NCBI GenBank assembly: GCA_029194535.1
Contig: JARFXR010000001.1
Location: forward strand, 1,186,721-1,250,720
DNA: 64,000 nt
Direction: 5' to 3'
Origin: Nitrospira sp.
GTDB lineage: Bacteria; Nitrospirota; Nitrospiria; Nitrospirales; Nitrospiraceae
Position numbers and translations under genes: made by a program. This document shows positions 21,436 through 36,492 of the stretch, one piece after another (position 1 is the stretch's first letter; every line of letters starts with the position of its first letter). The notes beneath the pieces were generated by a model, which saw only the letters and a program-made list of their open reading frames with translations, was not told the DNA's origin and did no database searches.

Positions 21436-24285
21436 ATGGTGACCCCTTACCATGCCAAGTTCTTCGCGTACGAACTTACCAAGCGGTGTCCGTCCGACAG
21501 TATCGAGAAACTCGCCAGCGCACTTGTCGATGCACAGGTCGATCTGAATCCCCATCAGATTGAAGCGGCGCAATTCGCGTTTCGGTCGCCTCTTTCGAAA
21601 GGCGCGCTTCTCGCCGACGAAGTTGGACTCGGGAAAACCATCGAAGCGGGCCTCGTGCTTTCGCAAAAGTGGGCAGAACGAAAGCGGCGGGTGCTGGTCA
21701 TTACGCCTTCAAATCTACGCAAGCAGTGGCATCAGGAGCTACAAGAGAAGTTCTTTCTGCCCTGTCGCATTCTGGAAACGAAGTCCTACAACCAGGCCGC
21801 CCGGCAAGGAAATGTCCGCCCATTTGAAATTCACGACATCGTCATCTGTTCCTACCAGTTCGCACGTTCGAAGGCGGCGGAGATCAGCCTCATGCGTTGG
21901 GATCTGGTTGTCATCGACGAAGCGCATCGCTTGCGGAACGTCTACAAACCCACCAACGTCATTGCCAACACGCTGAAGCAGTCTCTGAAGGACGCGCTCA
22001 AGTTGCTCCTGACTGCCACGCCATTACAAAACTCGTTGCTTGAACTCTATGGCCTCGTAAGTGTCGTGGATGACCGGATCTTCGGGGACCTCAAGAGCTT
22101 CAAGGAACAGTTTGCCAATCTGCACAACAAGCCGACCTTCGATATCTTGAAATCGCGCATGCAGCCGCTGTGCAAGCGAACGCTGCGTCGCCAAGTCTTG
22201 CCTTATGTGCGCTACACCAAGCGCCTGCCGATGGTCCAGCCCTTCACGCCGGCAGAGAGCGAGGACCGGCTCTATCATCTGGTCTCCGACTACCTGCGAC
22301 GAGACAATCTTCAAGCCCTACCGGCCAGCCAACGGACCCTGATGACTCTTGTGTTGCGGAAGCTCCTGGCCTCGTCCTCCTTCGCGATCGCCGGGGCACT
22401 CGAGTCCATGAGTCAACGGCTCCGTGAACGACTGCGCCAGGCCGATGGACCAAACCCACTGGAACAGGCGCTGGAAAAAGATTTCGAGGCACTGGACGAA
22501 ATCGCCGACGAATGGGAGGAGGAAGAACCCTCACCTGAACCCCTCACCGAAGCAGATCGGAAGGCCATTCAACAGGAGATTGACGACCTCGAAGGCTTCA
22601 GGACACTCGCTGTTTCGATTACCCATAACGCCAAGGGGCAAGCCCTGCTGATCGCCTTGCGGACAGCCTTCGGCAAAGCCTCGGATCTCGGCGCAGCCCA
22701 GAAAGCCATCATCTTCACCGAATCCAGACGCACGCAGGAGTATCTCCTCCGAGTCCTCGCCGACAGTCCCTGGAAAGACCACATCGTGCTCTTTAACGGC
22801 TCCAACAACGACGAGAAATCCAAGCAGATCTATCAAGCGTGGCTCCAGCGTCATCAGGGAACCGACCGAGTCACCGGCTCTCGCTCTGCCGACATGCGCT
22901 CTGCCATCGTGGACTATTTCAAGGAGCAGGGCCAAATCATGATCGCCACGGAAGCGGGAGCCGAAGGCATCAATCTCCAATTCTGTTCACTGGTCGTCAA
23001 CTACGATCTGCCCTGGAATCCGCAGCGGATCGAACAGCGTATCGGCCGCTGCCATCGCTATGGACAAAAGCACGATGTGGTTGTCGTGAACTTCCTGAAT
23101 CAGTCCAATGAAGCGGACCAGCACGTGTTCCGACTGCTATCCGAAAAATTCCAGCTCTTCGAGGGCGTCTTCGGGGCGAGCGATGAAGTACTGGGTGCCA
23201 TCGAATCCGGCGTCGATTTCGAGAAGCGCATTGCCGACATCTATCAGCGATGCCGGACTCCACAGGAGATCAAGACCTCGTTCGACCAATTACAGAGCGA
23301 ACTCGGCACGCAAATCGATGAAGCCATGACCCGCGCCCGCCAACTCCTCTTCGAACACTTCGATGACGAAGTGCGCGAGAAGCTCCGGGTCAGTGACGAG
23401 AGCTCCAGGCTGTACTTGAATCGATACGAGCGCATCCTCATGCAACTCACCCGCTTTGAACTGCGCGAGCACGCGGAATTTCTCACCGACTCGTCCTTCA
23501 AGCTGCAATCCTGTCCCTTTACAGGCGACATTCCTCTGGGGTTGTATGAACTACCTCGTCGAACGGGAGAAGCCCATCTCTATCGACTCGCGCATCCATT
23601 AGCTGAACGGGTCTTGGCGCAAGCGAAAGGCCGTACCCTGGAACCGGCTGAGCTGACCTTCGAGTATGGCAAGCACGACGGCAAAGTCACGGTCGTCGAG
23701 CCCTACATTGGGAAGTCTGGCGTCTTGAACGTGTCGCTCTTGACCGTCGAGGCGCTGGATCAGGCGGAGGACTATCTGATTTGCACCGGAGTAACGGATT
23801 CCGGTGAGGTGCTTGATGAAGAAGTCGTCAGGCGGCTGTTCTCCCTACCTGGAACAGTGACCGAATCGAGAACAACGCCACTCGACCATCCCTCGCTTCG
23901 CACGAAAACCGAAGAACGCCAGGACGCCATCAGCCGACAGATTTCCAAGCGCAATGCCGAATTCTTCGAGATTGAAGTCGATAAACTCGATGCCTGGGCA
24001 GACGATCTGAAGGTCGGTCTTGAGCGGGAGATCAAGGAATTCGATCGGCAAATCAAGGAGGCCCGTAAAGCTGCCGTGACGGCACTGACGCTGGAAGAAA
24101 AAGTGGCAGGCCACAAACAGATCAAGGCCCTGGAAGCCGAGCGGGGCAAACGCCGCCGGGCCCTGTTCGATGCCCAAGATGAAATCGACCGCCGCAGGGA
24201 ACAGTTGATTGCCGAGGTTGAGGGGAAACTGCAACAAAAGGTAAGCTCCGAGCAGCTATTCGCCATCCGTTGGAAGGTACGCTGA
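21436..24285 (+). CDS. SNF2-family DEAH helicase (defence-island type)
   Basis: A 949-residue superfamily 2 helicase. Motif I is DEVGLGKTIEAG (Lys67), motif II VVIDEAHRLRN (Asp161-His164), motif III LTATPLQNS, motif V ATEAGAEGINLQF and motif VI QRIEQRIGRCHRYGQ, the RapA/SNF2 arrangement. A C-terminal ~350 residues hold a helical region and a coiled coil. It opens the island and is followed by abiE-like genes on the same strand. Similar helicases occur in DISARM (DrmD) and other anti-phage loci; which type this is cannot be settled by eye. Confidence 0.85.
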   Translation: MVTPYHAKFFAYELTKRCPSDSIEKLASALVDAQVDLNPHQIEAAQFAFRSPLSKGALLADEVGLGKTIEAGLVLSQKWAERKRRVLVITPSNLRKQWHQELQEKFFLPCRILETKSYNQAARQGNVRPFEIHDIVICSYQFARSKAAEISLMRWDLVVIDEAHRLRNVYKPTNVIANTLKQSLKDALKLLLTATPLQNSLLELYGLVSVVDDRIFGDLKSFKEQFANLHNKPTFDILKSRMQPLCKRTLRRQVLPYVRYTKRLPMVQPFTPAESEDRLYHLVSDYLRRDNLQALPASQRTLMTLVLRKLLASSSFAIAGALESMSQRLRERLRQADGPNPLEQALEKDFEALDEIADEWEEEEPSPEPLTEADRKAIQQEIDDLEGFRTLAVSITHNAKGQALLIALRTAFGKASDLGAAQKAIIFTESRRTQEYLLRVLADSPWKDHIVLFNGSNNDEKSKQIYQAWLQRHQGTDRVTGSRSADMRSAIVDYFKEQGQIMIATEAGAEGINLQFCSLVVNYDLPWNPQRIEQRIGRCHRYGQKHDVVVVNFLNQSNEADQHVFRLLSEKFQLFEGVFGASDEVLGAIESGVDFEKRIADIYQRCRTPQEIKTSFDQLQSELGTQIDEAMTRARQLLFEHFDDEVREKLRVSDESSRLYLNRYERILMQLTRFELREHAEFLTDSSFKLQSCPFTGDIPLGLYELPRRTGEAHLYRLAHPLAERVLAQAKGRTLEPAELTFEYGKHDGKVTVVEPYIGKSGVLNVSLLTVEALDQAEDYLICTGVTDSGEVLDEEVVRRLFSLPGTVTESRTTPLDHPSLRTKTEERQDAISRQISKRNAEFFEIEVDKLDAWADDLKVGLEREIKEFDRQIKEARKAAVTALTLEEKVAGHKQIKALEAERGKRRRALFDAQDEIDRRREQLIAEVEGKLQQKVSSEQLFAIRWKVR

Positions 24286-24385: not shown

Positions 24386-24414
24386 TTGCAGCCGGTTTAC
24401 TATTACGCTATTTT
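24386..24414 (+). promoter_or_regulatory. Candidate leaderless promoter of the abiE-like genes
   Basis: TTGCAG (24386-24391), 17-nt spacer, TATTTT (24409-24414). The ATG at 24422 starts 8 nt after the -10 box and has no Shine-Dalgarno, so transcription may begin at or next to the start codon. Confidence 0.45.
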
Positions 24415-24421
24415 AACAAGC

Positions 24422-25192
24422 ATGACTAGTGCTCCAAGTAGCAAAATAAACCGGCTTCTCAAACAATGGCCCATCGGCGCGGTCGCAGTGCTGCCGTGGC
24501 TGGAAAAGCAAGGAGCCTATCAGCAACTGATTCATGAATATGAAAAAACCGCCTGGGTACGCCGGATTGGCCGTGGCGCCTATGTCAGGGCGGACGATAA
24601 GGTCGAGTGGACCGGTGGTCTCTATGCGCTCCAGAAACAACTCCTCCTTCCCATACACGCAGGGGGGAAAACGGCGCTGTCCATGCAGGGATATGCTCAT
24701 TTCTTGCCGATGGGGCAAGGCCCCACGGTCGTGTTGTTCGGCGCTCCTGACGTCAAACTTCCGCTGTGGTTCAAGCAATATCGCTGGGGCGTCAAGGTCC
24801 GGTATGCGACGACCAATTTGTTCGTCGGCAATGGCGATCATGGTCTGACACAAAAAGATATGGGCTTCTATTCGGTCAGTGCATCGACACCCGAGCGTGC
24901 CATGATGGAGGTCCTCTATGAGGTGCCGAAGAAAGAATCGTATGAAGAAGCAACGCTTCTGATGGAGGGGCTGACGACATTGCGACCACGACTGGTTCAG
25001 GCCTTGCTCGAAAACTGCGCATCGGTGAAGGTCAAGCGGCTGTTCATGGTGCTGGCTGAAAGCTGCAAGCACGCATGGACGAAGAAGCTTGACCTGTCAC
25101 ATGTCGAGTTCGGCAAGGGGAAGCGCATGCTGCTCAAGGGAGGACGGTTTGACTCCAAGTACCGTATCACGGTGCCGGAGAGCCGGGTGTGA
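24422..25192 (+). CDS. AbiEi-like antitoxin/transcriptional regulator
   Basis: A ~256-residue type IV antitoxin candidate. The N-terminal winged-helix region (INRLLKQWPIGAVAVLPWLEKQGAY...VRRIGRGAYVRADD) and the following domain (GGLYALQKQLLLP, GKTALSMQGYAHFLPMG) match the AbiEi family. AbiEi represses its own promoter and counters AbiEii. The ATG at 24422 is chosen over a TTG at 24386. The stop overlaps the next gene as GTGA, the normal coupling of this pair. Confidence 0.82.
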   Translation: MTSAPSSKINRLLKQWPIGAVAVLPWLEKQGAYQQLIHEYEKTAWVRRIGRGAYVRADDKVEWTGGLYALQKQLLLPIHAGGKTALSMQGYAHFLPMGQGPTVVLFGAPDVKLPLWFKQYRWGVKVRYATTNLFVGNGDHGLTQKDMGFYSVSASTPERAMMEVLYEVPKKESYEEATLLMEGLTTLRPRLVQALLENCASVKVKRLFMVLAESCKHAWTKKLDLSHVEFGKGKRMLLKGGRFDSKYRITVPESRV

Positions 25193-26109
25193 GAGAAAGC
25201 CGATATGTCAACCAAGTGGAGTTGATGCTGAAAACGATCCCGCATGTCGCCGCGGAAACATGTTTTGCCCTGAAAGGCGGAACCGCGATCAATCTGTTTG
25301 TGCGAGACATGCCGCGGCTATCCGTGGACATAGATCTGACGTATCTGCCGGTCGAGGAGCCACGTGAAACCGTGCTGAACAGGCTCAGCGAAGCCCTCCA
25401 TCGTATTGCGATGGCGATCAAAAGGGTCATTCCAGGCATAAACGTTCAGGAAAGTCACGCGCGGGAATCCAAGCGAATCGCAAAGCTCATCGTGGCGTGC
25501 GGCCAGACCAGAATCAAAATTGAGCCGAACGAGGTGATTCGAGGAGCGGTCTTTCCGGTCGAAGAACGTGAGCTGACCGAGCGCGCAGAGAAGATGTTTG
25601 AGCGCTCGGTCACCGCGCGCGTCCTCTCAATTCCCGATCTCTATGGAGGCAAGATGTGCGCAGCGTTAGACCGCCAACACCCACGAGATCTCTTTGATGT
25701 GAGGCTGCTGCTGGAACACGAGGGGGTAACAGACGAGATACGCAAAGCATTCGTCGTGTATCTCGCCAGCCACGATCGGCCCATCAGCGAACTGCTCGAC
25801 CCTACACGGAAAGACATACGACCCGTCTACGAAAGCGAGTTCGCAGGCATGGCGGTGGACGAAATCGCGTATGAAGATTTGATCGCGGCCAGAGAGGCGC
25901 TCATTGAGACGATCAATACAGCATTGACCGACGACGAGAAGGTCTTTCTCATATCGCTCAAAGAAGGGCAACCGAAGTGGAACGTCATGGGTGTCGAAGG
26001 CATTGAGCAACTTCCTGCAGTGCAATGGAAATTGAAGAACATTCGGAACATGAGCGAGAAGAAACGCGACGAGTCCCTGGAGAAACTCAAAAGAGTACTC
26101 GGAGTGTGA
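25189..26109 (+). CDS. AbiEii-like nucleotidyltransferase toxin
   Basis: A 306-residue nucleotidyltransferase of the AbiEii family; characterised members block growth by adding nucleotides, in some cases to tRNA ends. Motifs: ALKGGTAINLF, the metal-binding LSVDIDLTYL (Asp47 and Asp49) and MCAALDRQHPRDLFDVRLLL with the conserved Lys/Arg-Asp-x-x-Asp set. GTG start overlaps the abiEi stop by 4 nt. All catalytic residues appear present. As type IV TA, the antitoxin acts without binding the toxin. Confidence 0.87.
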   Translation: MRESRYVNQVELMLKTIPHVAAETCFALKGGTAINLFVRDMPRLSVDIDLTYLPVEEPRETVLNRLSEALHRIAMAIKRVIPGINVQESHARESKRIAKLIVACGQTRIKIEPNEVIRGAVFPVEERELTERAEKMFERSVTARVLSIPDLYGGKMCAALDRQHPRDLFDVRLLLEHEGVTDEIRKAFVVYLASHDRPISELLDPTRKDIRPVYESEFAGMAVDEIAYEDLIAAREALIETINTALTDDEKVFLISLKEGQPKWNVMGVEGIEQLPAVQWKLKNIRNMSEKKRDESLEKLKRVLGV

Positions 26110-26147: not shown

Positions 26148-27452
26148 ATGAGCGAACCGACCATCATCTGCCCCTCCTGCAAGACGGAGATCAAGCTCAC
26201 AGAGTCCCTTGCCGCGCCGCTGATCGAATCCACCCGCCGCGACTACGAGAAGCAATTGGCTCAGAAAGATGCCGATGCAACCAAGCGGGAAGCTGGGATT
26301 CGTGAAAGAGAAGAAGCCATCGCAAAGGAGAAAGAACGCCTTGACGAGCAAGTAGCAGAAAAGGTTCGACAGGAGCGGAGTAGAATCGCAGCAGAGGAGG
26401 CAAAGAAGGCCAAGCTCGCACTACAGACTGACTTGGATCAGATGGCGAAAGAAGTCACTGATCTTCAGGAAGTCATCAAACAACGTGAAGCAAAACTAGC
26501 CGAGGCACAGAAAGCCCAGGCCGATCTGCTCAAGAAGCAGCGAGAACTGGACGATGCCAAGCGCGAACTTGAGCTGACAGTGGAGAAGCGTGTTCAGGAA
26601 GGATTGTCCGTGACCCGTGAGCAGGCCAAGAAAGAAGCAGAAGAAAGTCTCAAGCTGAAGGTGTTGGAAAAAGAGCAAACCATCGTGTCGATGCAGAAGC
26701 AAATCGAGGAATTGAAGCGAAAGGCTGAACAGGGCTCGCAACAGCTTCAGGGCGAGGTCCAGGAATTGGAACTGGAAGCGCTGCTCCGGGCCAAGTTCCC
26801 TCGGGACACAATCGAGCCGGTTCCCAAGGGCGAACATGGGGGCGACGCGCTTCAGCACGTCGTCGGGCCGAACGGCCAACCCTGTGGCACTATCATTTGG
26901 GAATCGAAGCGGACCAAGAACTGGAGCGATGGGTGGCTCGCCAAGCTCCGCGAAGATCAGCGGGCTGCCAAAGCAGAAATCGCCGTCATCGTCAGCCAAT
27001 CACTCCCGAAAGAAATTGAAACGTTTGGAGTGGTTGAGAATGTGTGGGTCACCCATACGAAGACGGTGCTTCCACTGGCACACACACTCCGCCACTCCCT
27101 GATCGAAGTCGCCTCGGCTCGCCAGGCCTCCGAAGGCCAGCAGACCAAGACGGAAATGATCTACCAATACCTCACCGGACCGCGTTTCCGTCAACGGGTC
27201 GAGGCCATCGTCGAGGCCTTCTCCTCAATGCAGGAGGATCTCGACAAAGAGAAGAAGGCGATTATCAAGCAATGGGCCAAACGAGAAGAGCAGATTGATC
27301 GAGTGATGCAGGCAACGGCGGGAATGTATGGGGACCTACAGGGGATTGCAGGAAAGACAATACAGGAAATCGAAGGGCTAGAATTACGTGCGCTGAGTCC
27401 ACCTGCCTCTCATCCAACCGACACAGATGATCGAATTGGTAATGAGGGATAG
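26148..27452 (+). CDS. DUF2130 family protein with coiled coil and PD-(D/E)XK-like motif
   Basis: A 434-residue cytoplasmic protein. The N-terminus has CPSCKTEI, a possible metal-binding knuckle, then about 200 residues of charged coiled coil. The C-terminal DUF2130 domain has GEHGGDALQHV (Asp233) followed by GTIIWESKRTKNW (Glu252, Lys254), spaced like a PD-(D/E)XK nuclease core. Start ATG has AAGGAG upstream. It lies between abiEii and the RloC-like gene on the same strand. Nuclease activity is an inference; the family has no agreed function. Confidence 0.8.
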   Translation: MSEPTIICPSCKTEIKLTESLAAPLIESTRRDYEKQLAQKDADATKREAGIREREEAIAKEKERLDEQVAEKVRQERSRIAAEEAKKAKLALQTDLDQMAKEVTDLQEVIKQREAKLAEAQKAQADLLKKQRELDDAKRELELTVEKRVQEGLSVTREQAKKEAEESLKLKVLEKEQTIVSMQKQIEELKRKAEQGSQQLQGEVQELELEALLRAKFPRDTIEPVPKGEHGGDALQHVVGPNGQPCGTIIWESKRTKNWSDGWLAKLREDQRAAKAEIAVIVSQSLPKEIETFGVVENVWVTHTKTVLPLAHTLRHSLIEVASARQASEGQQTKTEMIYQYLTGPRFRQRVEAIVEAFSSMQEDLDKEKKAIIKQWAKREEQIDRVMQATAGMYGDLQGIAGKTIQEIEGLELRALSPPASHPTDTDDRIGNEG

Positions 27453-27461
27453 AGCACAATT

Positions 27462-30092
27462 ATGTCGCTATTGACTGATATTCTTGTCTGGTCTAGCGCA
27501 AACCTCCTGCCTTGGCAGCGCGATGCCCTTCGTCGATTATTTCAACATCAAGAATGCAGCTCGCAAGACATTGATGACTTGTATGCAATGCTGAAGTCTG
27601 CCCGAGGATTGCCTGACCCTCAAAATCGCCAGCCAAGTCCACTCGCAGCAGAGCATCTTCCTGTACAGTCTGCCGGTGCCGGCGTTGTGGTTCTTCATGC
27701 CCTTCGAGAGTTAAAGAACGTCAATAGAATTGCAGATGGCGAGAAACTCACCTTCGGGCCTAAGGGGATCACGGTAGTATACGGCGGTAACGGTTCAGGA
27801 AAGTCTGGGTACTCTCGTGTGCTGAAGCGAGCTTGTCGTGCGCGTGACGTCTCAGAAACTGTCCATGCCGATGCGAGCGATCCGCAGTCCAGCGGGAAAG
27901 TCCCGGAAGCAATTTTCGACGTTACGGTGGGCGCGGTCCAGAGGTCGCTTAACTGGAAACGCAATAGCCCAGCTCCTGAGGAGCTTTCAACAATAGCTGT
28001 GTTTGATGGACGATGTGCTCGTGAATATCTGGACGAGCAGGATGTTGCCTACCTTCCCTATGGTCTCGACATCGTAGAAAATCTCGGCCAAAAAGTTCTG
28101 CCCGAGCTATTGCGCCGATTGAACAGTGAAATCGAATCGACAAACACTGACGTTGCTCCTTTTGCTGATCTAATAGGAGACACATCGGTTGGGAAGGTAA
28201 TCGCAACTCTCAGCGACACCACAAACAGCGAGCTGGTTAAGAAACTGGCAACTCTCACGAAATCAGAAACGGACCGACTAAACGAACTTGAAAAGACCTT
28301 GGCGGAAAATGATCCGAAGACCAAGGCAAAAGGATTGTTGCTCTCAGCGCAGCGCATCAATGGTCTCATTTCTCGCATTGACTCAAGCCTGTCAGACGTC
28401 GATGAAGCGGCGACCCAGAAGCTCAAGTCATGCGATACCGAGACAGAAGCTGCGATTAAAGCTGAAGTTCTAGCTGCGGAGAATCTTCGAGCCGGTGAAC
28501 CATTACTTCCAGGGACGGGCGATCTGACTTGGAAGACCCTTTTCGAGGCCGCGCGTAGTTTCTCTGTGGAATCAGCCTATCCCAGTGAAGCCTTTCCACA
28601 TGTGTGCTCAGGAGCTAAGTGTCTGTTGTGCCAACAGCCGCTGAATCAAGACGCAGCAAGTCGTATGCAACGGTTCGACGAGTTCTTGAAGCAAGAGACT
28701 GCAAAAGTAGCAACGGAAAAACGCCAGCAGCGCGCGTTAGCTGACCAGAAACTTGCTAAGGCTTCTCTTGCTTTTGGATTGGAGGACGCGCTTATTGAAG
28801 AACTCAAGCAGCTAGATCCGGCCGTGCTTCAGCGTGTCCAGGATTTTGAGAAGGAGGTTGAGAAACGAAGAACATGGCTACGGGGTTCCCTTAATACTCA
28901 TGATTGGGATAGCCCTTCCCCATTGGATTGTGACCCACGGCCAAGGTTGAAAGAGATTTCCAAGACACTACTCGATCAGGCAAGGGACTTAGAGAAAGCG
29001 AGTGATGAGGGTCACAGGAAAGCCCTTGAAACTGAACGTGCCGAACTTCGCGCTCGATTTAACCTGTCCCTGCGATCCGAAGCCGTACAAGACCTCGTTC
29101 GGAGAATGAAGGTCAAGGCAGCATTGATTAAATGTAAAGATGATCTGAAAACGAAAGCGATTTCAGATAAGGCAAAGGAATTTGCGAGTCAAGCTGTCAC
29201 AGCCGCACTGAAGACAGCGCTAGATAAGGAATTTGAGGCTTTGGGAGTCGGCCATATAAAAACCAAGCTCATCGAACGTGTTGAGAAAGGGAAGATGAAG
29301 CACAAGTTGGTGTTAGCTCTTCCCGTTACCACAAAATTGGACGAAATCCTGAGTGAAGGAGAACAGAGGGCGATTGCCATTGGGTCTTTCTTAGCCGAAT
29401 TACAGTTAGCTGGGCTCAGTGGAGGGATTGTATTTGATGACCCAGTGTCCTCGCTTGATCATCACCGACGGATGCGAGTGGCACGTCGTCTTGTCGAGGA
29501 GGCTAAACAGCGCCAAGTAATTGTGCTGACACATGAGACTGTATTTCTGTGCGAATTGCTCGACGCAATTGAGCAACAGAACATTGACTGCCAAATGCAC
29601 CATCTGGAATGGGCAAATGACCATCCAGGTCATGTTATTGAAGGACTTCCTTGGGAACACATGGACTACAAGGACAGGCTGAATAAGTTGGAGGGAGAAC
29701 AGAGGCAATTAGAAGCAAGTTGGCCGGCCTATTCAAACGAGGAAGAACGCTCCAGGATGCGAAGGCAATACAGTCGCTTGCGTGCGACAATTGAACGTAT
29801 CATCCAGGACGTTGTGTTTAATGGGGTTTTGCACCGCTACCGAGACAGAATCAGTATTGATCGACTTAAGCAAGTGGTGGGCTTCACAGAATTTGAATTC
29901 AAGGAAATTGAAAGACTTCATAAAGTGTGTTGCGAGGTTATAGATTCTCACGATGCTTCCTCTGTAAAAAATCAACCGGTCCCTACTGCTGAGCAATTAG
30001 GACAAGATATTAGAGACGTGAGATCGCTTGCAAAAGCAGTCAAAGGCAGGGGGAAGAAAGCACCTGTGAGCAGCGCCGGAGCATCGTCTTAG
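27462..30092 (+). CDS. RloC/PrrC-like AAA_13 ATPase with zinc-hook motif (candidate anticodon nuclease)
   Basis: An 876-residue SMC/ABC-type ATPase. Walker A is GGNGSGKSGYSR (residues 108-115), then a long coiled coil interrupted by KCLLCQQPL (Cys387, Cys390), a Rad50/RloC-like zinc hook, then ABC signature LSEGEQRAIAIG (from ~630), Walker B GIVFDDPVSSLD (~655) and VLTHE. The last ~190 residues contain Arg774-x3-Glu778 with His791 or His820 downstream, reminiscent of the Arg/Glu/His set of PrrC and RloC anticodon nucleases. The gene looks clearly AT-richer than the flanks. Nuclease function is an inference. Confidence 0.75.
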   Translation: MSLLTDILVWSSANLLPWQRDALRRLFQHQECSSQDIDDLYAMLKSARGLPDPQNRQPSPLAAEHLPVQSAGAGVVVLHALRELKNVNRIADGEKLTFGPKGITVVYGGNGSGKSGYSRVLKRACRARDVSETVHADASDPQSSGKVPEAIFDVTVGAVQRSLNWKRNSPAPEELSTIAVFDGRCAREYLDEQDVAYLPYGLDIVENLGQKVLPELLRRLNSEIESTNTDVAPFADLIGDTSVGKVIATLSDTTNSELVKKLATLTKSETDRLNELEKTLAENDPKTKAKGLLLSAQRINGLISRIDSSLSDVDEAATQKLKSCDTETEAAIKAEVLAAENLRAGEPLLPGTGDLTWKTLFEAARSFSVESAYPSEAFPHVCSGAKCLLCQQPLNQDAASRMQRFDEFLKQETAKVATEKRQQRALADQKLAKASLAFGLEDALIEELKQLDPAVLQRVQDFEKEVEKRRTWLRGSLNTHDWDSPSPLDCDPRPRLKEISKTLLDQARDLEKASDEGHRKALETERAELRARFNLSLRSEAVQDLVRRMKVKAALIKCKDDLKTKAISDKAKEFASQAVTAALKTALDKEFEALGVGHIKTKLIERVEKGKMKHKLVLALPVTTKLDEILSEGEQRAIAIGSFLAELQLAGLSGGIVFDDPVSSLDHHRRMRVARRLVEEAKQRQVIVLTHETVFLCELLDAIEQQNIDCQMHHLEWANDHPGHVIEGLPWEHMDYKDRLNKLEGEQRQLEASWPAYSNEEERSRMRRQYSRLRATIERIIQDVVFNGVLHRYRDRISIDRLKQVVGFTEFEFKEIERLHKVCCEVIDSHDASSVKNQPVPTAEQLGQDIRDVRSLAKAVKGRGKKAPVSSAGASS

Positions 30093-30094
30093 AC

Positions 30095-30276
30095 ATGGGC
30101 AACAACCGAACCAAACTCGAACTCACTTGGATTGGGAAGGAGAACCGGCCGAAGCTGGACCTGCCCGCCGTCTGGCAGGCGGGGCCGCGGATTCTGCAGA
30201 GGACCTGGAGAAATCCGACTTCGACTCGCACCGGCTCACCGACCACGATGTGTTCGACACCCGGCTCATCGTGTGA
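30095..30276 (+). pseudogene. Truncated duplicate of the type III mod 5' end
   Basis: The start encodes KLELTWIGKENRPKL, identical to residues 6-20 of the intact Mod at 31373. A 24-bp palindromic element (30160-30183) is inserted next, and a frameshift follows; the other frame continues DFDSHRLTDHDVFDTRLIV up to a TGA at 30276, matching Mod residues ~32-50. Nothing of the rest of mod remains. This fragment and the intact mod bracket a toxin-antitoxin cassette. Confidence 0.8.
30160..30183. repeat. 24-bp palindromic element A in the mod remnant
   Basis: CCTGCCCGCCGTCTGGCAGG followed by CGGG; CCTGCC pairs with GGCAGG. The same element with small changes occurs at 36399-36422 and 38236-38259 inside the CRISPR-like repeats. 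Confidence 0.7.
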
Positions 30277-30358
30277 GATGACGAGTCCGACCGTATGGAC
30301 CAAACAACATCATCTTGCGCACCATGGCGTGAGTTGACAACCGCATGGAGGCAGACGA

Positions 30359-30637
30359 ATGAGTAAAGCCTTGCTCAAAATCGAACGAGAAGCGGTTCGC
30401 TTGCCGGTAAAAGATCGAGAAATTCTGGCTGAACGTCTCATGCGGAGCGTGAAACAGGAGCCATTGACTCGGGTGGAAGAAGCCTGGGTGGAAGAGGCCG
30501 AGCGTCGGTTTTCCGCTTGGCGGCGTGGGACGCGAACGGGGGTGCCGGTTGAGCGGGCGTTCAAACAGATTCGCACAGATCTCGGCTGCGATATAATCCC
30601 CCCGAACCTGGAAAATGGGCGGAACAGCCGGAGGTGA
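30359..30637 (+). CDS. Addiction-module antitoxin component
   Basis: A 92-residue protein resembling the putative addiction-module component family (short antitoxins next to RelE/ParE toxins): LLKIEREAVRLPVKDREILAE-type opening, AERLMRSV, and a C-terminal helix VERAFKQIRTDLG. Start ATG has GGAGG upstream. No RelE/ParE toxin is next to it; instead the UPF0175/PIN pair follows one base later, so it may be an orphan or part of a composite cassette. Confidence 0.65.
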   Translation: MSKALLKIEREAVRLPVKDREILAERLMRSVKQEPLTRVEEAWVEEAERRFSAWRRGTRTGVPVERAFKQIRTDLGCDIIPPNLENGRNSRR

Positions 30638-30892
30638 ATGATGAGCAGAATCACCATGGACATACCGGAGGACATCCTGTTGGCGCTGAAGCTCCAGCCG
30701 GATGCGATGAGTGAGGAGTTACGGGCGGCGGCAGCGGTCAAGTTATTCGAACTCGGACGGTTGTCTTCCGGCGCAGCCGCGCGGTTGGCCGGCATCCCCA
30801 GAACGATCTTCCTGACCAAGCTGGCTCAGTACGGTGTGGATACGTTCCGATTGACCGAGGAGCAACTGCGGGAGGAATCCGGGATTGCCTGA
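30638..30892 (+). CDS. UPF0175 family antitoxin
   Basis: An 84-residue DNA-binding protein of UPF0175: ELRAAAAVKLFELGRLSSG followed by the helix-turn-helix AARLAGIPRTIFLTKLAQYG. UPF0175 proteins regularly pair with DUF3368 PIN-like toxins, as here, with an 8-nt overlap. The start may be the first or second of two ATG codons (30638 or 30641). Confidence 0.85.
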   Translation: MMSRITMDIPEDILLALKLQPDAMSEELRAAAAVKLFELGRLSSGAAARLAGIPRTIFLTKLAQYGVDTFRLTEEQLREESGIA

Positions 30893-31367
30893 GGTCATCT
30901 CCGACACCTCGCCCCTGCAATACCTGGCTCAGATCGATCTGTTGCACATGTTGCCGACCTTGGCCGGACACATCATCGTGCCCCAAGCCGTCGTCGAGGA
31001 ACTGGCACAGGGACGAGCAGCCGGGCTGAGCCTGCCTGATCCCACGGTGATCGAGTGGATGACCATCAGACGACCGGTGAGTGCGTCGGCCCTCGCGCTT
31101 GTCACAGACCTGGGCCCTGGGGAAACGGAGACCTTGCTATTGGCTCTGGAATCGCAAGACCCGCTGGTCATCCTCGACGATGCGCTTGCCCGTCGCATCG
31201 CCAAAACCCGGGGCATTCGGGTCATTGGAACATTGGGAGTGCTTCTGGAGGCGAAACGGACCGGTCATGTGCCCCTCATTCGCCCCTACCTCGATCGATT
31301 GGACACGTTGCGCTTTCGCCTGGCCTCACACACCCGAGAAGCGGTCCTCAAACTGGCACGTGAGTAA
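30885..31367 (+). CDS. DUF3368 PIN-like toxin
   Basis: A 160-residue PIN-fold ribonuclease candidate. The first catalytic Asp is in EVISDTSPLQYLAQ, the central acid in GPGETETLLLAL, and the last in VILDDALARRIAKTRGIRVI; TLGVLLEAKRTGHV is typical of DUF3368. TTG start, about 8 nt after a GGAGG, overlapping the UPF0175 antitoxin. The intact mod gene begins 5 nt after its stop, so the cassette sits directly against the restriction system. Confidence 0.86.
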   Translation: MPEVISDTSPLQYLAQIDLLHMLPTLAGHIIVPQAVVEELAQGRAAGLSLPDPTVIEWMTIRRPVSASALALVTDLGPGETETLLLALESQDPLVILDDALARRIAKTRGIRVIGTLGVLLEAKRTGHVPLIRPYLDRLDTLRFRLASHTREAVLKLARE

Positions 31368-31372
31368 CAGTA

Positions 31373-33058
31373 GTGGCACAGAAACCCAAACTCGAACTCA
31401 CCTGGATTGGAAAAGAGAACCGGCCGAAGCTGGAGCCGCGCATTCTGTTGGAGGACCCGGAGAAGTCCTACCATGCCCCGCACCGAGTGACGGACCACGA
31501 CATTTTCGACAACCGGCTCATTTTTGGCGACAATTTGCTTGCACTCAAGGCGCTCGAACAGGAATTCACCGGCAAGATCAAATGCATCTACATCGATCCG
31601 CCATACAACACAGGTTCTGCCTTTGCTCAGTATGAAGACGGTCTTGAGCACTCTACCTGGTTGTCATTGATACACGCGCGGCTGGATCTTCTACGCTCAC
31701 TCTTGTCTCCAGACGGTTCGTGTTGGGTCCAACTTGACGACAACGAGGCTCATTACTGCAAAGTCCTTATGGATGAGGTATTCGGTCGCAGCAATTTCGT
31801 GGCCAACGTTGTCTGGAACAAGTCCTACGCTGTTAGAAGCAATGCGCAGTTCTTTTCTACAGCCCATGAGCACCTGCTTGTGTACTGCAAGGATCGCTCT
31901 CAGTTTAACCCCAATAAGTTTGCGCGAACTGAGAAACAAGAGGCGCGATACGACAACCCGGATAATGATGGTCGCGGTCCATGGCAATCTGTAACCATGA
32001 CAATAAGTCTTGTAGGCGGAGCGCGTGGTCGCCAGTATGCAAGGACAGGGAAGTCTGAGAATATTTATGAAGTAACGTCACCCAGTGGGAAAAAGTTCTG
32101 GCCACCTGCTAACCGTTGTTGGTCCCGCAATCCGCACGGATTTGGTACCCTGGATCAGGACAAGCGTATTTGGTGGGGTCCTAATGGGGATCGCGCACCA
32201 CGTCTCAAACTGTTTCTTTTAGAAGCCGAAGAAGGGATTCTCCCAACCACTCTTTGGGCGGAAGGTGAACTATTTGGGCTGAACCAGGACGGTATACGAG
32301 AAATTCGTGCGCTCGGTCTCCCCGACTTTCCAACCCCAAAGCCAGAGCGATTGATGCAGAAAGTATTGGAGATTGGGTCAAGCGCTGGAGATTTGATACT
32401 CGATTCCTTTGCTGGTTCCGGTACCACCGGTGCCGTTGCTCACAAGATGGGCCGGCGGTGGATCATGGTGGAGTTGGGCGAGCATTGCCACACGCACGTC
32501 ATTCCGCGCCTGAAGAAGGTCATTGACGGAGAAGACAAAGGCGGTATTACCGAGGCGGTTGGTTGGAAAGGCGGCGGAGGGTTCCGCTACTACCACCTTG
32601 CGCCGTCGTTGCTGGAGAAGGACAAGTGGGGCAACTGGGTCATCAACAAGCTCTACAAACCAGAGATGCTCGCGCAAGCCGTTTGCAAGCTGGAAGGGTT
32701 CACCTACGCGCCGAGTGACACCATCTACTGGCAGCAGGGGCACTCTTCGGAACGGGACTTCATCTACGTCACCACGCAGAACTTGAGCCATGACCAGTTG
32801 CAGGCGTTGAGCGATGAAGTCGGCGACGGCCGCTCCCTGTTAGTGATGTGCTCGGCCTTCCGTGGGAAAGCCGATCGCTATTCCAACCTCACGATCAAGA
32901 AGATCCCCAAGACGGTCCTCTCCCGCTGCGAGTGGGGCCATGATGATTACAGCCTGAAGATCGAGAACTTACCCAAGGCCCCTCACCCCAACCCTCTCCC
33001 AGGGGGAGAGGGGGAGGACAAGTCTGGCCAGCAGGGGCTGGAGCTGGAAATCAGTTGA
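31373..33058 (+). CDS. mod: Type III restriction-modification DNA methyltransferase (Mod)
   Basis: A 561-residue adenine-N6 methyltransferase of the beta class: catalytic CIYIDPPYNTGSAFAQYEDG (DPPY at 75-78) comes before the AdoMet motif DSFAGSGTTGAVAHKMG (~342-358), with target recognition between. Type III assignment is supported by the Res gene downstream. GTG start. The C-terminus carries PHPNPLPGGEGEDK, coded by a palindromic intergenic-type repeat that entered the frame, so the last ~20 residues are probably not ancestral. Separated from res by DUF4160/DUF2442. Confidence 0.9.
   Translation: MAQKPKLELTWIGKENRPKLEPRILLEDPEKSYHAPHRVTDHDIFDNRLIFGDNLLALKALEQEFTGKIKCIYIDPPYNTGSAFAQYEDGLEHSTWLSLIHARLDLLRSLLSPDGSCWVQLDDNEAHYCKVLMDEVFGRSNFVANVVWNKSYAVRSNAQFFSTAHEHLLVYCKDRSQFNPNKFARTEKQEARYDNPDNDGRGPWQSVTMTISLVGGARGRQYARTGKSENIYEVTSPSGKKFWPPANRCWSRNPHGFGTLDQDKRIWWGPNGDRAPRLKLFLLEAEEGILPTTLWAEGELFGLNQDGIREIRALGLPDFPTPKPERLMQKVLEIGSSAGDLILDSFAGSGTTGAVAHKMGRRWIMVELGEHCHTHVIPRLKKVIDGEDKGGITEAVGWKGGGGFRYYHLAPSLLEKDKWGNWVINKLYKPEMLAQAVCKLEGFTYAPSDTIYWQQGHSSERDFIYVTTQNLSHDQLQALSDEVGDGRSLLVMCSAFRGKADRYSNLTIKKIPKTVLSRCEWGHDDYSLKIENLPKAPHPNPLPGGEGEDKSGQQGLELEIS
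32981..33015. repeat. Palindromic repeat inside the mod 3' end
   Basis: CCCTCTCCC (32992-33000) and GGGAGAGGG (33004-33012) form a 9-bp stem around AGG. In frame it encodes the PHPNPLPGGEG peptide, a well-known signature of dispersed intergenic repeats read through into coding sequence. Confidence 0.7.
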
Positions 33059-33680: not shown

Positions 33681-36371
33681 ATGAATCGCCACGTCAATGC
33701 GATTGCCGGACGACTGAGCCTCAGGCTTCCCCAGCGGCAGTCGCTGGAGATCCTGGACCGCGTCACGGAGATTGTTCCGCCCAAGAAGAACGCCGATCTG
33801 GCTTCAGCCCTGGCTGCTATCAAGAGCGAGTTTCCCACGGTCACCGACTTCGAACGCGAGTTTCCGTCTCTCTGCTTTGCCCTGGCAACCGGTGTCGGGA
33901 AAACCAGGCTCATGGGCGCCTTCATCAGCTATCTCCACCTGGCACACGGGATAAACAACTTCTTTGTTCTTGCCCCGAATCTCACCATCTATAACAAGCT
34001 CATTACCGACTTTACTCCGAATACCTCCAAGTATGTCTTTAAAGGTATTGCCGAGTTTGCTACTGAGCCACCAGAGTTAATCACTGGGGATGACTATGAG
34101 GCGAAGGCGCGGTCGCTCTTCGATGTATTTACACGCTGCAAGGTGAACGTGTTTAACATTTCGAAGATCAATACGGAGGTTCGCGGAAACAAAGCTCCTC
34201 GGATCAAACGATTGTCAGAGTATATCGGCCAAAGTTACTTCGAATACTTGGCTGGACTCGAAGCTCTCGTTCTGATCATGGACGAGTCACATCGATATCG
34301 GGCTTCTGCTGGAATACGAGCCATCAATGAATTACGACCGATCCTCGGACTGGAATTGACGGCTACGCCGTTCATCGGCACGACCATTCAAAACCGTCAG
34401 TATTTCAAGAACGTTATTTACAATTTCCCCCTGGGCCGGGCTATGGAAGACGGATTCGTGAAAGAACCGGCTGTGGTGACCCGGAAAAATTTCAATCCAT
34501 ACGGAATGAGCCCCAAGGATATCGACCACCTCAAGCTAGAGGACGGTGTCCACCTTCATGAACAGACCAAGGTGCTCCTAGAAACCTACGCACGCGAGCA
34601 TGGGCAAGCCATCGTTAAGCCGTTTGTGCTGGTGGTGGCGCAAGATACTGCTCACGCTGCTGAGCTTCTCAAGCGCATCCAGTCTGACGACTTCTTCGAG
34701 GGACGCTATAAGGACAAGGTGATCCAAGTCGATTCCAGTACGAAAGAAGAAGATTTTGTGGATCGCCTTCTCAAAGTCGAACACAGGGATGAAGCGACGG
34801 AGATTGTGATCCACGTCAATATGCTCCAAGAGGGATGGGATGTCACCAATCTCTACACCATTATTCCCTTGCGTGCTGCATCGGCCCCACGACTGATTGA
34901 GCAAACGATTGGTCGGGGCCTTCGCCTGCCGTATGGGAAACGAACGGGTGTCACGGTGGTTGACCGGCTGAATGTTATTGCTCATGACCATTTTCAAGAA
35001 ATTATCGATGAAGCCAATAAGCCCGATTCCCCATTCCGGATTCAGCACGTTGCCCTTACTCCGGATGAATTGTCCCGAAAGACCGTCACCGTCGTGTCTC
35101 AACCCCAGCTATTGAACCGCCTTGGGCTGCAACCGGCCCATCCGTCGCCGAACACCATAGTGGCGAGCACGGACTCTCCTCCTGTGTTTACAACCCCGGA
35201 GGAGCAGAAAGCTGCTCAGATTGCCTACAACGTCATCAGAAAGTTGGAAACGGAGCCGCAGAAACTTCCCAACGTGATGTTTCTCTTGAAGCCGGAAATC
35301 CAGGCAGAGATTGTCAAGGAAGTGGAGGCGCAATATCGGCCAGCCCAGCTCGAGCTGGAAGGGGTCAAGCCATCGCTGGATTTTCGGGTAATTGTGTCAG
35401 AGACCTCGCAAGTCATCACCCAACAAGTGATCGACATTCCACGAATTCTTGTCATCCCGAAGAGCGAAGTACATGCGGGGTTCAAGCCGTTTACAGTAGA
35501 TCTCGGCGCGTTGAACTATCCTGCTCCCTCCGATGAGCTCTGGATTAAACACCTCCGAACCAATCAGCTCGAAGTCGTGGCCCTCGGAAAAACTGGTCTG
35601 GATGAATCCAGAATGGAAGATTATGTGGTTGCCGGGTTGATCGATTTCGACGATGTCGCATATGACGAGCATGCTGAGTTACTGTATGACTTGGCCGGCC
35701 AGGTCGTTCATCATTTTCGCGGCTATCTCTCAGAGATCGACACCAAAAAGGTTCTCCGCCTCTATCAACGTGACATTGCACGCTTCGTTCATGCTCAGAT
35801 GGAACAGCATTACTGGGAAGATCCTGTCGAATATGAGTTCAAGGTCAGCAAAGGGACTGAAACAAAGCTCAAGGAGAGTGCCTATACCAGACTCTCCCGC
35901 GAGGAAGACCTTGATTTCAGACAGCCTCCACCTGATGTGAATAATATCGGTAAGTATCTATTTCGAGGCTTTAGCCGTTGCCTCTATCCCGTGCAGAAAT
36001 TCCAATCTGACTCAGAGCGTCGGTTCTCAGTGATTCTCGATCGCGACACGCTCAAGTGGTTCAAGCCGGCGAAAGGACAGTTCCAGATATTTTATAAGCT
36101 CGGAGCCGATCAGCCAGAGTACGTACCGGACTTCGTAGCCGAAACGTCGGACAGTATCTTTATGCTGGAGGTCAAATCTCGCGCCGATCTGACTGATACC
36201 CTCGTCCAAGAGAAGAAGAAGGCAGCTATGACATGGTGCTCCCATGCCACAACATTTTCGACTAGTAACGGCGGCAAACCGTGGAAGTACGTCCTCATCC
36301 CCCACGACGTGATCGCTGAAAACATGACGCTCGCCGGGTTAGTTAGTCAGTTTGCGGTTGGAGCTTCGTAG
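33681..36371 (+). CDS. res: Type III restriction enzyme, Res subunit
   Basis: An 896-residue helicase-nuclease. Helicase motifs: LATGVGKTRLMGAF (Lys74), IMDESHRYRAS (Asp201), ELTATPFIG, and the arginine-finger region LIEQTIGRGLRLPYG. The C-terminal nuclease has PDFVAETSDS then MLEVKSRAD, a PD-(D/E)XK site (Pro816-Asp817, Glu830, Lys832). Res cuts DNA with Mod after ATP-driven translocation between head-to-head sites. All catalytic elements appear intact. Last gene of the island before the repeat/TA zone. Confidence 0.9.
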   Translation: MNRHVNAIAGRLSLRLPQRQSLEILDRVTEIVPPKKNADLASALAAIKSEFPTVTDFEREFPSLCFALATGVGKTRLMGAFISYLHLAHGINNFFVLAPNLTIYNKLITDFTPNTSKYVFKGIAEFATEPPELITGDDYEAKARSLFDVFTRCKVNVFNISKINTEVRGNKAPRIKRLSEYIGQSYFEYLAGLEALVLIMDESHRYRASAGIRAINELRPILGLELTATPFIGTTIQNRQYFKNVIYNFPLGRAMEDGFVKEPAVVTRKNFNPYGMSPKDIDHLKLEDGVHLHEQTKVLLETYAREHGQAIVKPFVLVVAQDTAHAAELLKRIQSDDFFEGRYKDKVIQVDSSTKEEDFVDRLLKVEHRDEATEIVIHVNMLQEGWDVTNLYTIIPLRAASAPRLIEQTIGRGLRLPYGKRTGVTVVDRLNVIAHDHFQEIIDEANKPDSPFRIQHVALTPDELSRKTVTVVSQPQLLNRLGLQPAHPSPNTIVASTDSPPVFTTPEEQKAAQIAYNVIRKLETEPQKLPNVMFLLKPEIQAEIVKEVEAQYRPAQLELEGVKPSLDFRVIVSETSQVITQQVIDIPRILVIPKSEVHAGFKPFTVDLGALNYPAPSDELWIKHLRTNQLEVVALGKTGLDESRMEDYVVAGLIDFDDVAYDEHAELLYDLAGQVVHHFRGYLSEIDTKKVLRLYQRDIARFVHAQMEQHYWEDPVEYEFKVSKGTETKLKESAYTRLSREEDLDFRQPPPDVNNIGKYLFRGFSRCLYPVQKFQSDSERRFSVILDRDTLKWFKPAKGQFQIFYKLGADQPEYVPDFVAETSDSIFMLEVKSRADLTDTLVQEKKKAAMTWCSHATTFSTSNGGKPWKYVLIPHDVIAENMTLAGLVSQFAVGAS

Positions 36372-36383
36372 TTGAACAATTTG

Positions 36384-36492
36384 GTAGCGCCCGCTCGACC
36401 TGCCCGACGCCAGGCAGGCGGGAAGGGCGGGCCCTTCGACTAGGCTCAGGACAGGTCCTTCGACGATGCTCAGGACAGGCGAGGAGTGAAAC
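36384..36492. repeat. CRISPR-repeat-like palindromic element, copy 1 (with insertions A and B)
   Basis: Outer halves GTAGCGCCCGCTCGA and GGCGAGGAGTGAAAC frame two insertions: the 24-bp element A (36399-36422) and a double CCTTCGAC-type element B (36432-36480). It follows the res gene and precedes HicBA. Confidence 0.75.

Follow-up and report, generated by a model that had tools for sequence, protein, structure and literature searches.

The locus analyzed here raises the question of whether a zinc-hook ATPase encoded next to a type III restriction-modification (R-M) system is a guard of that system or a defence gene in its own right. The gene lies in a 64,000-nucleotide stretch of Nitrospira sp. 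DNA (contig JARFXR010000001.1 of assembly GCA_029194535.1), which is referred to below as the window. A preliminary description proposed that it codes for an RloC-like zinc-hook ATPase, which may be an anticodon nuclease, and that as a guard of a type III system it would form a pairing different from that of PrrC with type I systems. We assign a probability of about 0.6 to a different reading, namely, an RloC-type ribonuclease (RNase) that has its own internal switch and is carried as exchangeable cargo rather than as a dedicated partner of the Mod and Res subunits. RloC-type proteins are known as switches by which bacteria shut themselves down in defence against phages.

The reading frame is intact from ATG to stop and codes for 876 residues. 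Pfam domain AAA_13 matches residues 385-706 (2.7e-20), while the match to the PADLOC PrrC model is confined to residues 657-712, within the ATPase. Homologs gathered from plasmids, GTDB genomes and viral contigs yielded an alignment of 92 full-length proteins (hereafter the long family). The ATP-binding cassette (ABC) head is complete, as it includes Walker A, signature, Walker B, D-loop and H-switch motifs, all of them near-invariant in the alignment. Together with the invariant cysteines of the CLLC hook (C387 and C390), this bears out the proposed RloC-like zinc-hook ATPase. Another cysteine, C382, was considered as a hook residue and rejected, as it is not conserved among homologs. Based on family resemblance, the insert between the ATPase halves presumably folds into a coiled coil that has the hook at its tip; in GkaRloC the zinc hook is regulatory (PMC2610378). 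The conserved N-terminal extension ahead of the P-loop is absent from canonical RloCs of ~750 residues, in which the P-loop is found near residues 34-41. The gene is under purifying selection, as comparison with a 90% identical copy from another genus gave 0.050 nonsynonymous (dN) and 0.425 synonymous (dS) substitutions per site. A PDB sequence search with the window protein returned matches only to ABC heads, and a sequence search with PrrC gave no relative of solved structure.

The defining features of RloC are the ABC motifs, a coiled-coil insert bearing CxxC and the motif R-x3-E-x36-52-H (Davidov and Kaufmann, PMC2610378); the corresponding residues of GkaRloC, R692, E696 and H737, are essential (PMC2610378). 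The window protein has R774-x3-E778-x51-H830, and the spacing between Glu and His ranges from 48 to 52 across the long family. R774 is conserved in 91, E778 in 92 and H830 in 91 of the 92 homologs, the full triad being present in 90. Within residues 700-876 (~175 residues) only G723 and the triad itself reach at least 98% conservation, and the rest of the domain is variable. Because the triad persists in an otherwise variable region, its origin by chance is very unlikely. Thus, the Arg-x3-Glu pair of the preliminary description holds, and the histidine that goes with it is H830; the two other candidates, H791 and H820, were rejected since both vary among homologs. As controls we used 31 canonical ~750-residue RloCs and 42 PrrCs, the latter comprising matches to the family model and plasmid copies linked to hsd genes, some of which carry the annotation anticodon nuclease; neither set includes GkaRloC or E. 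coli PrrC, the proteins studied by experiment. The triad is present in all of the controls, with a Glu-His spacing of 31-35 residues in PrrC and 36-54 in RloC.

Structural models place the triad similarly. In the AlphaFold model of residues 716-876, numbered from the start of the domain, helices span positions 21-38, 45-70 (with R59 and E63, that is, R774 and E778), 84-89, 95-112 and 128-151, and H115 (H830) precedes the last of them. The model of the PrrC domain (predicted local distance difference test score, pLDDT, 81) has helices at 28-44, 51-66 (with R57 and E61), 72-75, 86-96, 99-102 (short) and 110-126, with the histidine at position 97. Helix order and triad placement are common to both models: R-x3-E lies toward the end of the second long helix, and the histidine directly follows a later helix and precedes the last one. 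In fold searches, HEPN proteins were among the top matches of the window domain (7ae9, Z 8.6; 2hsb, Z 8.4; range 8.0-8.6), and the PrrC domain matched AbiV and HEPN toxins (Z 5-6). A Foldseek search against viral models returned nothing informative. The predicted fold is compatible with HEPN but not conclusive. As for the HEPN motif Rx4-6H, 20 of 91 sequences have Arg (and 28 more have Lys) six residues ahead of the His, and 10 have Arg five residues ahead of it; the window protein has no Arg at these positions before H830.

Several observations weigh against reading the domain as an RloC-type ribonuclease. Comparison of C-terminal profiles with hhalign gave P=0.22 over 12 columns for the long family and PrrC (decoys, 0.07-0.35), and PrrC homology did not reach significance with either shallow or deeper profiles. 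The match to the RloC C-terminal region was weak (P=0.003), and the histidines were in register while the Arg and Glu were not; RloC and PrrC themselves aligned in register (P=2e-5). The Arg that in PrrC stands seven residues before the His is not conserved in the long family, and Ser directly before the His occurs only in a minority. In addition, the HEPN fold matches were tied with hemerythrin and other unrelated helical bundles. Since profile homology to PrrC is not significant, the anticodon nuclease assignment rests on motif, architecture and topology. The original proposal is thus partly supported: the RloC-like architecture, the zinc hook and a conserved triad hold, the triad having the published RloC spacing and a helix placement like that of modelled PrrC, but significant sequence homology of the C-terminal domain to PrrC did not emerge.

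To see in what company the ATPase occurs, we compared Res-anchored loci in other genomes of the phylum. They share a backbone of a DrmD-like helicase, DUF2130, a slot, Mod and Res, with DUF2130 missing or broken in some loci. Across the phylum (L350, L352-L359, L363-L365, L034, L054 and L065) this one slot holds differing defence modules. Before Mod we found IetAS (L350, L358, L359), LmuB-like SMC ATPases (L352, L356, L357), an OLD/Gabija-like ATPase-TOPRIM (L353), SIR2-HerA (L354, L355), a Ppl-like protein (L364) or the RloC-like ATPase (the window, L034, L054, L065 and the short contig L045). Relative to the window, G041 has a DUF2130-ATPase block with 85.5% DNA identity and an ATPase with 90% protein identity, compared with 57% for Mod and 62% for Res. 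In G252, Res (91%) and DrmD (89%) are closely matched, yet the slot is occupied by IetAS and there is no RloC-like ATPase. Thus, partners have been swapped in both directions, as the ATPase is kept with divergent Mod and Res in one case and Res is kept without the ATPase in the other. The ATPase is therefore most likely exchangeable cargo of the type III locus and not its dedicated guard. At another locus (L044:1694-16094), a DUF1156 methylase/DUF499 core, possibly related to BREX, precedes DUF2130, an RloC-like ATPase with 65% identity to that of the window and an IetAS-resembling pair (an AAA ATPase and a subtilase), that is, the same cargo with another defence core. An open-library literature search found no paper treating DUF2130 together with R-M systems.

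Module borders carry traces of the mod gene. In the window, the ATPase stop is followed after two bases by an ATG and a decayed copy of approximately the first 54 codons of mod, located ahead of the PIN module. The same fragment occupies the same junction in L034, where an OLD-like gene follows in place of the PIN module, and similar fragments are found at module borders in L358, L364 and L365. In L054 the ATPase-mod junction has the same two-base gap, and the mod gene runs on. This locus also has a DUF2130 3' fragment (55% identical, ~77 residues; L054:9702-9971) at another border, where inserted AAA_21 and DUF4276 genes precede it and the ATPase comes directly after. In the simplest reading, the ends of mod and DUF2130 would be the sites at which recombination brings in modules. 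In the window as well as in L034 and L054, two nucleotides separate the ATPase stop from the mod ATG, which points to an operonic arrangement. Separately, a 30-nucleotide repeat (87% identical) with a palindromic CCTGCC...GGCAGG core occurs inside the mod remnant (30154-30183) and just after res (36393-36422), and looks like a small dispersed palindromic element.

All genes from the helicase to Res, listed in Table 1, lie on the same strand in the order DrmD-like, AbiEi, AbiEii, DUF2130, ATPase, small antitoxin-like reading frames, PIN, Mod and Res; the adjoining type III restriction genes of the preliminary description were thus confirmed. The helicase was considered as a DISARM component and rejected, as it scores 716.6 bits against the NCBIfam cut-off of 950 (NF038318). 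The AbiEi/AbiEii pair is missing from the sister locus L034.

Table 1. Features of the ATPase gene and of the surrounding type III locus (window coordinates)
Feature	Coordinates	Strand	Basis or remark
DrmD-like SNF2 helicase, backbone	21436..24285	+	
AbiEi/AbiEii type IV toxin-antitoxin pair, cargo between DrmD and DUF2130 (AbiEi 24386, AbiEii 25189)	24386..26109	+	
DUF2130 protein, backbone	26148..27452	+	one 85.5% DNA block with ATPase in sister locus
RloC-like zinc-hook ABC ATPase with predicted C-terminal HEPN-type RNase domain	27462..30092	+	PADLOC PDC-S06 (PDLC04891), full length, E 5e-188
N-terminal extension ahead of P-loop, ~70-80 residues, W10 and W18 conserved	27462..27701	+	
Walker A, residues 108-115 (GGNGSGKS; G108-N-G-S-G-K114-S115)	27783..27806	+	alignment of 92
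Zinc hook C387-L-L-C390, within insert between ATPase halves	28620..28631	+	92/92 conserved
ABC signature SEGEQR, residues 631-636 (S631-E-G-E634)	29352..29369	+	alignment of 92
Walker B and D-loop IVFDDPVSSLD, residues 656-666 (D659-D-P-x-S-S-L-D666)	29427..29459	+	alignment of 92
Switch histidine H691	29532..29534	+	92/92 conserved
C-terminal helical domain, residues 716-876, HEPN-like helix arrangement (predicted)	29607..30089	+	modelled alone, pLDDT 87.9
Putative catalytic triad R774 (29781-29783), E778 (29793-29795), H830 (29949-29951)	29781..29951	+	alignment of 92
Remnant of type III mod 5' end, ATG two bases past ATPase stop	30095..30282	+	repeated at 31373-31535; alignment score 151, shuffled maximum 36
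Second cargo: addiction-module component (30359), UPF0175 (30638), PIN/DUF3368 (30885; PADLOC PDC-S70)	30359..31367	+	
Type III methyltransferase Mod, backbone	31373..33058	+	PADLOC MTase_III, 723 bits
Type III restriction subunit Res, backbone	33681..36371	+	PADLOC REase_III, 654 bits

Linkage to R-M systems is occasional in the family as a whole. No type I or III genes were detected near most homologs; among ~80 long loci, HsdR occurs at 9 and Mod at 4, counts that are lower bounds because few R-M queries were used, and this undercounting speaks against the independence of the ATPase. The control PrrCs L156-L161 have hsd neighbors. In the phylogenetic tree the type III-linked members fall into two groups, and a single origin of the linkage is possible. 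As early as 2008, 8 of 73 RloC cases were reported to lie at R-M loci of type I or III, one of them explicitly type III (Davidov and Kaufmann, PMC2610378), so the pairing presented earlier as different is not new. Two further observations concern gene neighborhoods. One homolog (L011:11818-14406), encoded on a conjugative plasmid of Moellerella, is flanked by hsdS and hsdR of a type I locus, which is the PrrC arrangement. In alphaproteobacteria (L009, L010, L081, L121), long-form RloC-like ATPases are found near an SbcD/SbcC-like exonuclease-ATPase gene pair.

We propose that the Rad50-like ABC ATPase with its zinc-hook insert restrains a C-terminal HEPN-type ribonuclease. Upon engagement of the ATPase with DNA damage, caused by phage attack or by restriction, the ribonuclease would be released and would cut tRNA, probably in the anticodon loop, so that translation stops. 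The switch would be internal to the ATPase-RNase protein itself, which probably serves as a second line of defence expressed together with restriction. DNA breaks activate published RloC by way of the ATPase and zinc hook of the protein itself, and this activation was seen in R-M-deficient mutants of A. baylyi (PMC3874168).

A dedicated guard in the manner of PrrC would be silenced by type III Mod/Res and freed when a phage inhibits the type III enzyme. The shared strand and gene run, the two-base spacing of ATPase stop and mod ATG in three loci, the PrrC precedent and the two separate type III-linked groups on the tree all speak for such a role. We nevertheless consider it unlikely, as nearly the same ATPase occurs with divergent Mod and Res (G041), a near-identical Res occurs with IetAS in the slot (G252), unrelated effectors fill the slot elsewhere, most homologs have no detected Mod/Res nearby, and published RloC has an internal switch that did not require R-M proteins (PMC3874168). 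The guard role suggested in the preliminary description is disfavored accordingly. The occurrence of unrelated defence effectors at one position of a conserved backbone, as well as the recurrence of DUF2130-ATPase adjacency in the DUF1156/DUF499 core, might also be taken to mean that the DrmD-like helicase, DUF2130 and Mod/Res form one modular system that senses invasion and switches on whichever effector fills the slot. However, IetAS, SIR2-HerA and OLD/Gabija-like cargo are separate systems in PADLOC, and defence genes lodged within R-M loci are able to function alone (TgvAB, PMC11411939), which makes a single system improbable. It is a long shot, too, that the backbone is a plug-in chassis that senses failed restriction and triggers the suicide effector of the slot (RloC-like RNase, IetAS protease, SIR2-HerA or OLD/Gabija-like), with modules exchanged by recombination at the conserved mod 5' end.

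The activity of the protein itself may be read in other ways. A HEPN-type RNase of the same build might cut mRNA, rRNA or another tRNA site instead of anticodons. The HEPN superfamily has many targets (PMC3710099), and the C-terminal sequence, which lacks the PrrC-type flanking residues, has diverged from PrrC beyond profile recognition; the architecture and triad, on the other hand, match both known ABC-HEPN anticodon nucleases (PMC2610378), and we regard a different target as possible but doubtful. Resemblance of the ATPase and zinc hook to Rad50, along with the SbcD/SbcC-like pairs near four homologs, could suggest a DNA repair ATPase of the Rad50/SbcC kind whose tail is non-catalytic. This is very improbable in view of the near-invariant R-E-H set in that tail and of the window locus, where no Mre11/SbcD-like partner gene adjoins the ATPase.

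The RloC type, the PDC-S06 family of PADLOC, RloC at type I and III loci (2008) and defence genes within R-M loci (PMC12255303, PMC11411939) are already known; both papers on the latter cite a 2024 preprint by Payne and co-workers. For an exchangeable slot in a DrmD-like/DUF2130/Mod/Res backbone with mod remnants we found no description in the literature search, which was limited to an open library. With the window protein, the RloC type comes to include a divergent long subfamily that occurs in many phyla with its triad intact and has so far been merely a candidate in PADLOC. The type III locus serves as a slot for interchangeable anti-phage effectors, and the mod 5' remnants seem to record the stacking of modules. 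Such a locus makes it simple to test if embedded effectors rely on the host R-M system or are merely its neighbors.

Among known systems, the window protein is closest in build to RloC, with which it shares a CxxC insert splitting the ABC head, the C-terminal R-x3-E-x36-52-H motif, a size within 658-897 residues and occasional type I/III linkage. It differs in the conserved N-terminal extension of ~70-80 residues, in that Ser precedes the His only in a minority of its family, and in a C-terminal profile that is only weakly similar. PDC-S06, a PADLOC phage defence candidate, includes both this long form and canonical RloC; the library states no function, and PDC-S06 appears in four papers, at least one of which gives it only as a list entry. 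With PrrC the window protein has in common an ABC ATPase with a C-terminal triad, the same modelled helix order and a place in an R-M operon. However, PrrC is a compact ABC ATPase without a zinc hook, has a Glu-His spacing of 31-35 rather than 48-52 residues, shows no significant profile match and pairs with type I hsd genes rather than type III Mod/Res. In contrast to Rad50/SbcC, the window protein has a conserved C-terminal triad domain and no adjoining Mre11/SbcD-like partner. At the level of the locus, the SNF2 helicase is related to DrmD of DISARM, but the window locus has type III Mod and Res. DarTG2 (PMC12255303) and TgvAB (PMC11411939), both in type I loci, are likewise stand-alone anti-phage genes between R-M subunit genes, whereas the host here is a type III locus with a DrmD-like helicase, DUF2130 and Mod 5' remnants at the module borders.
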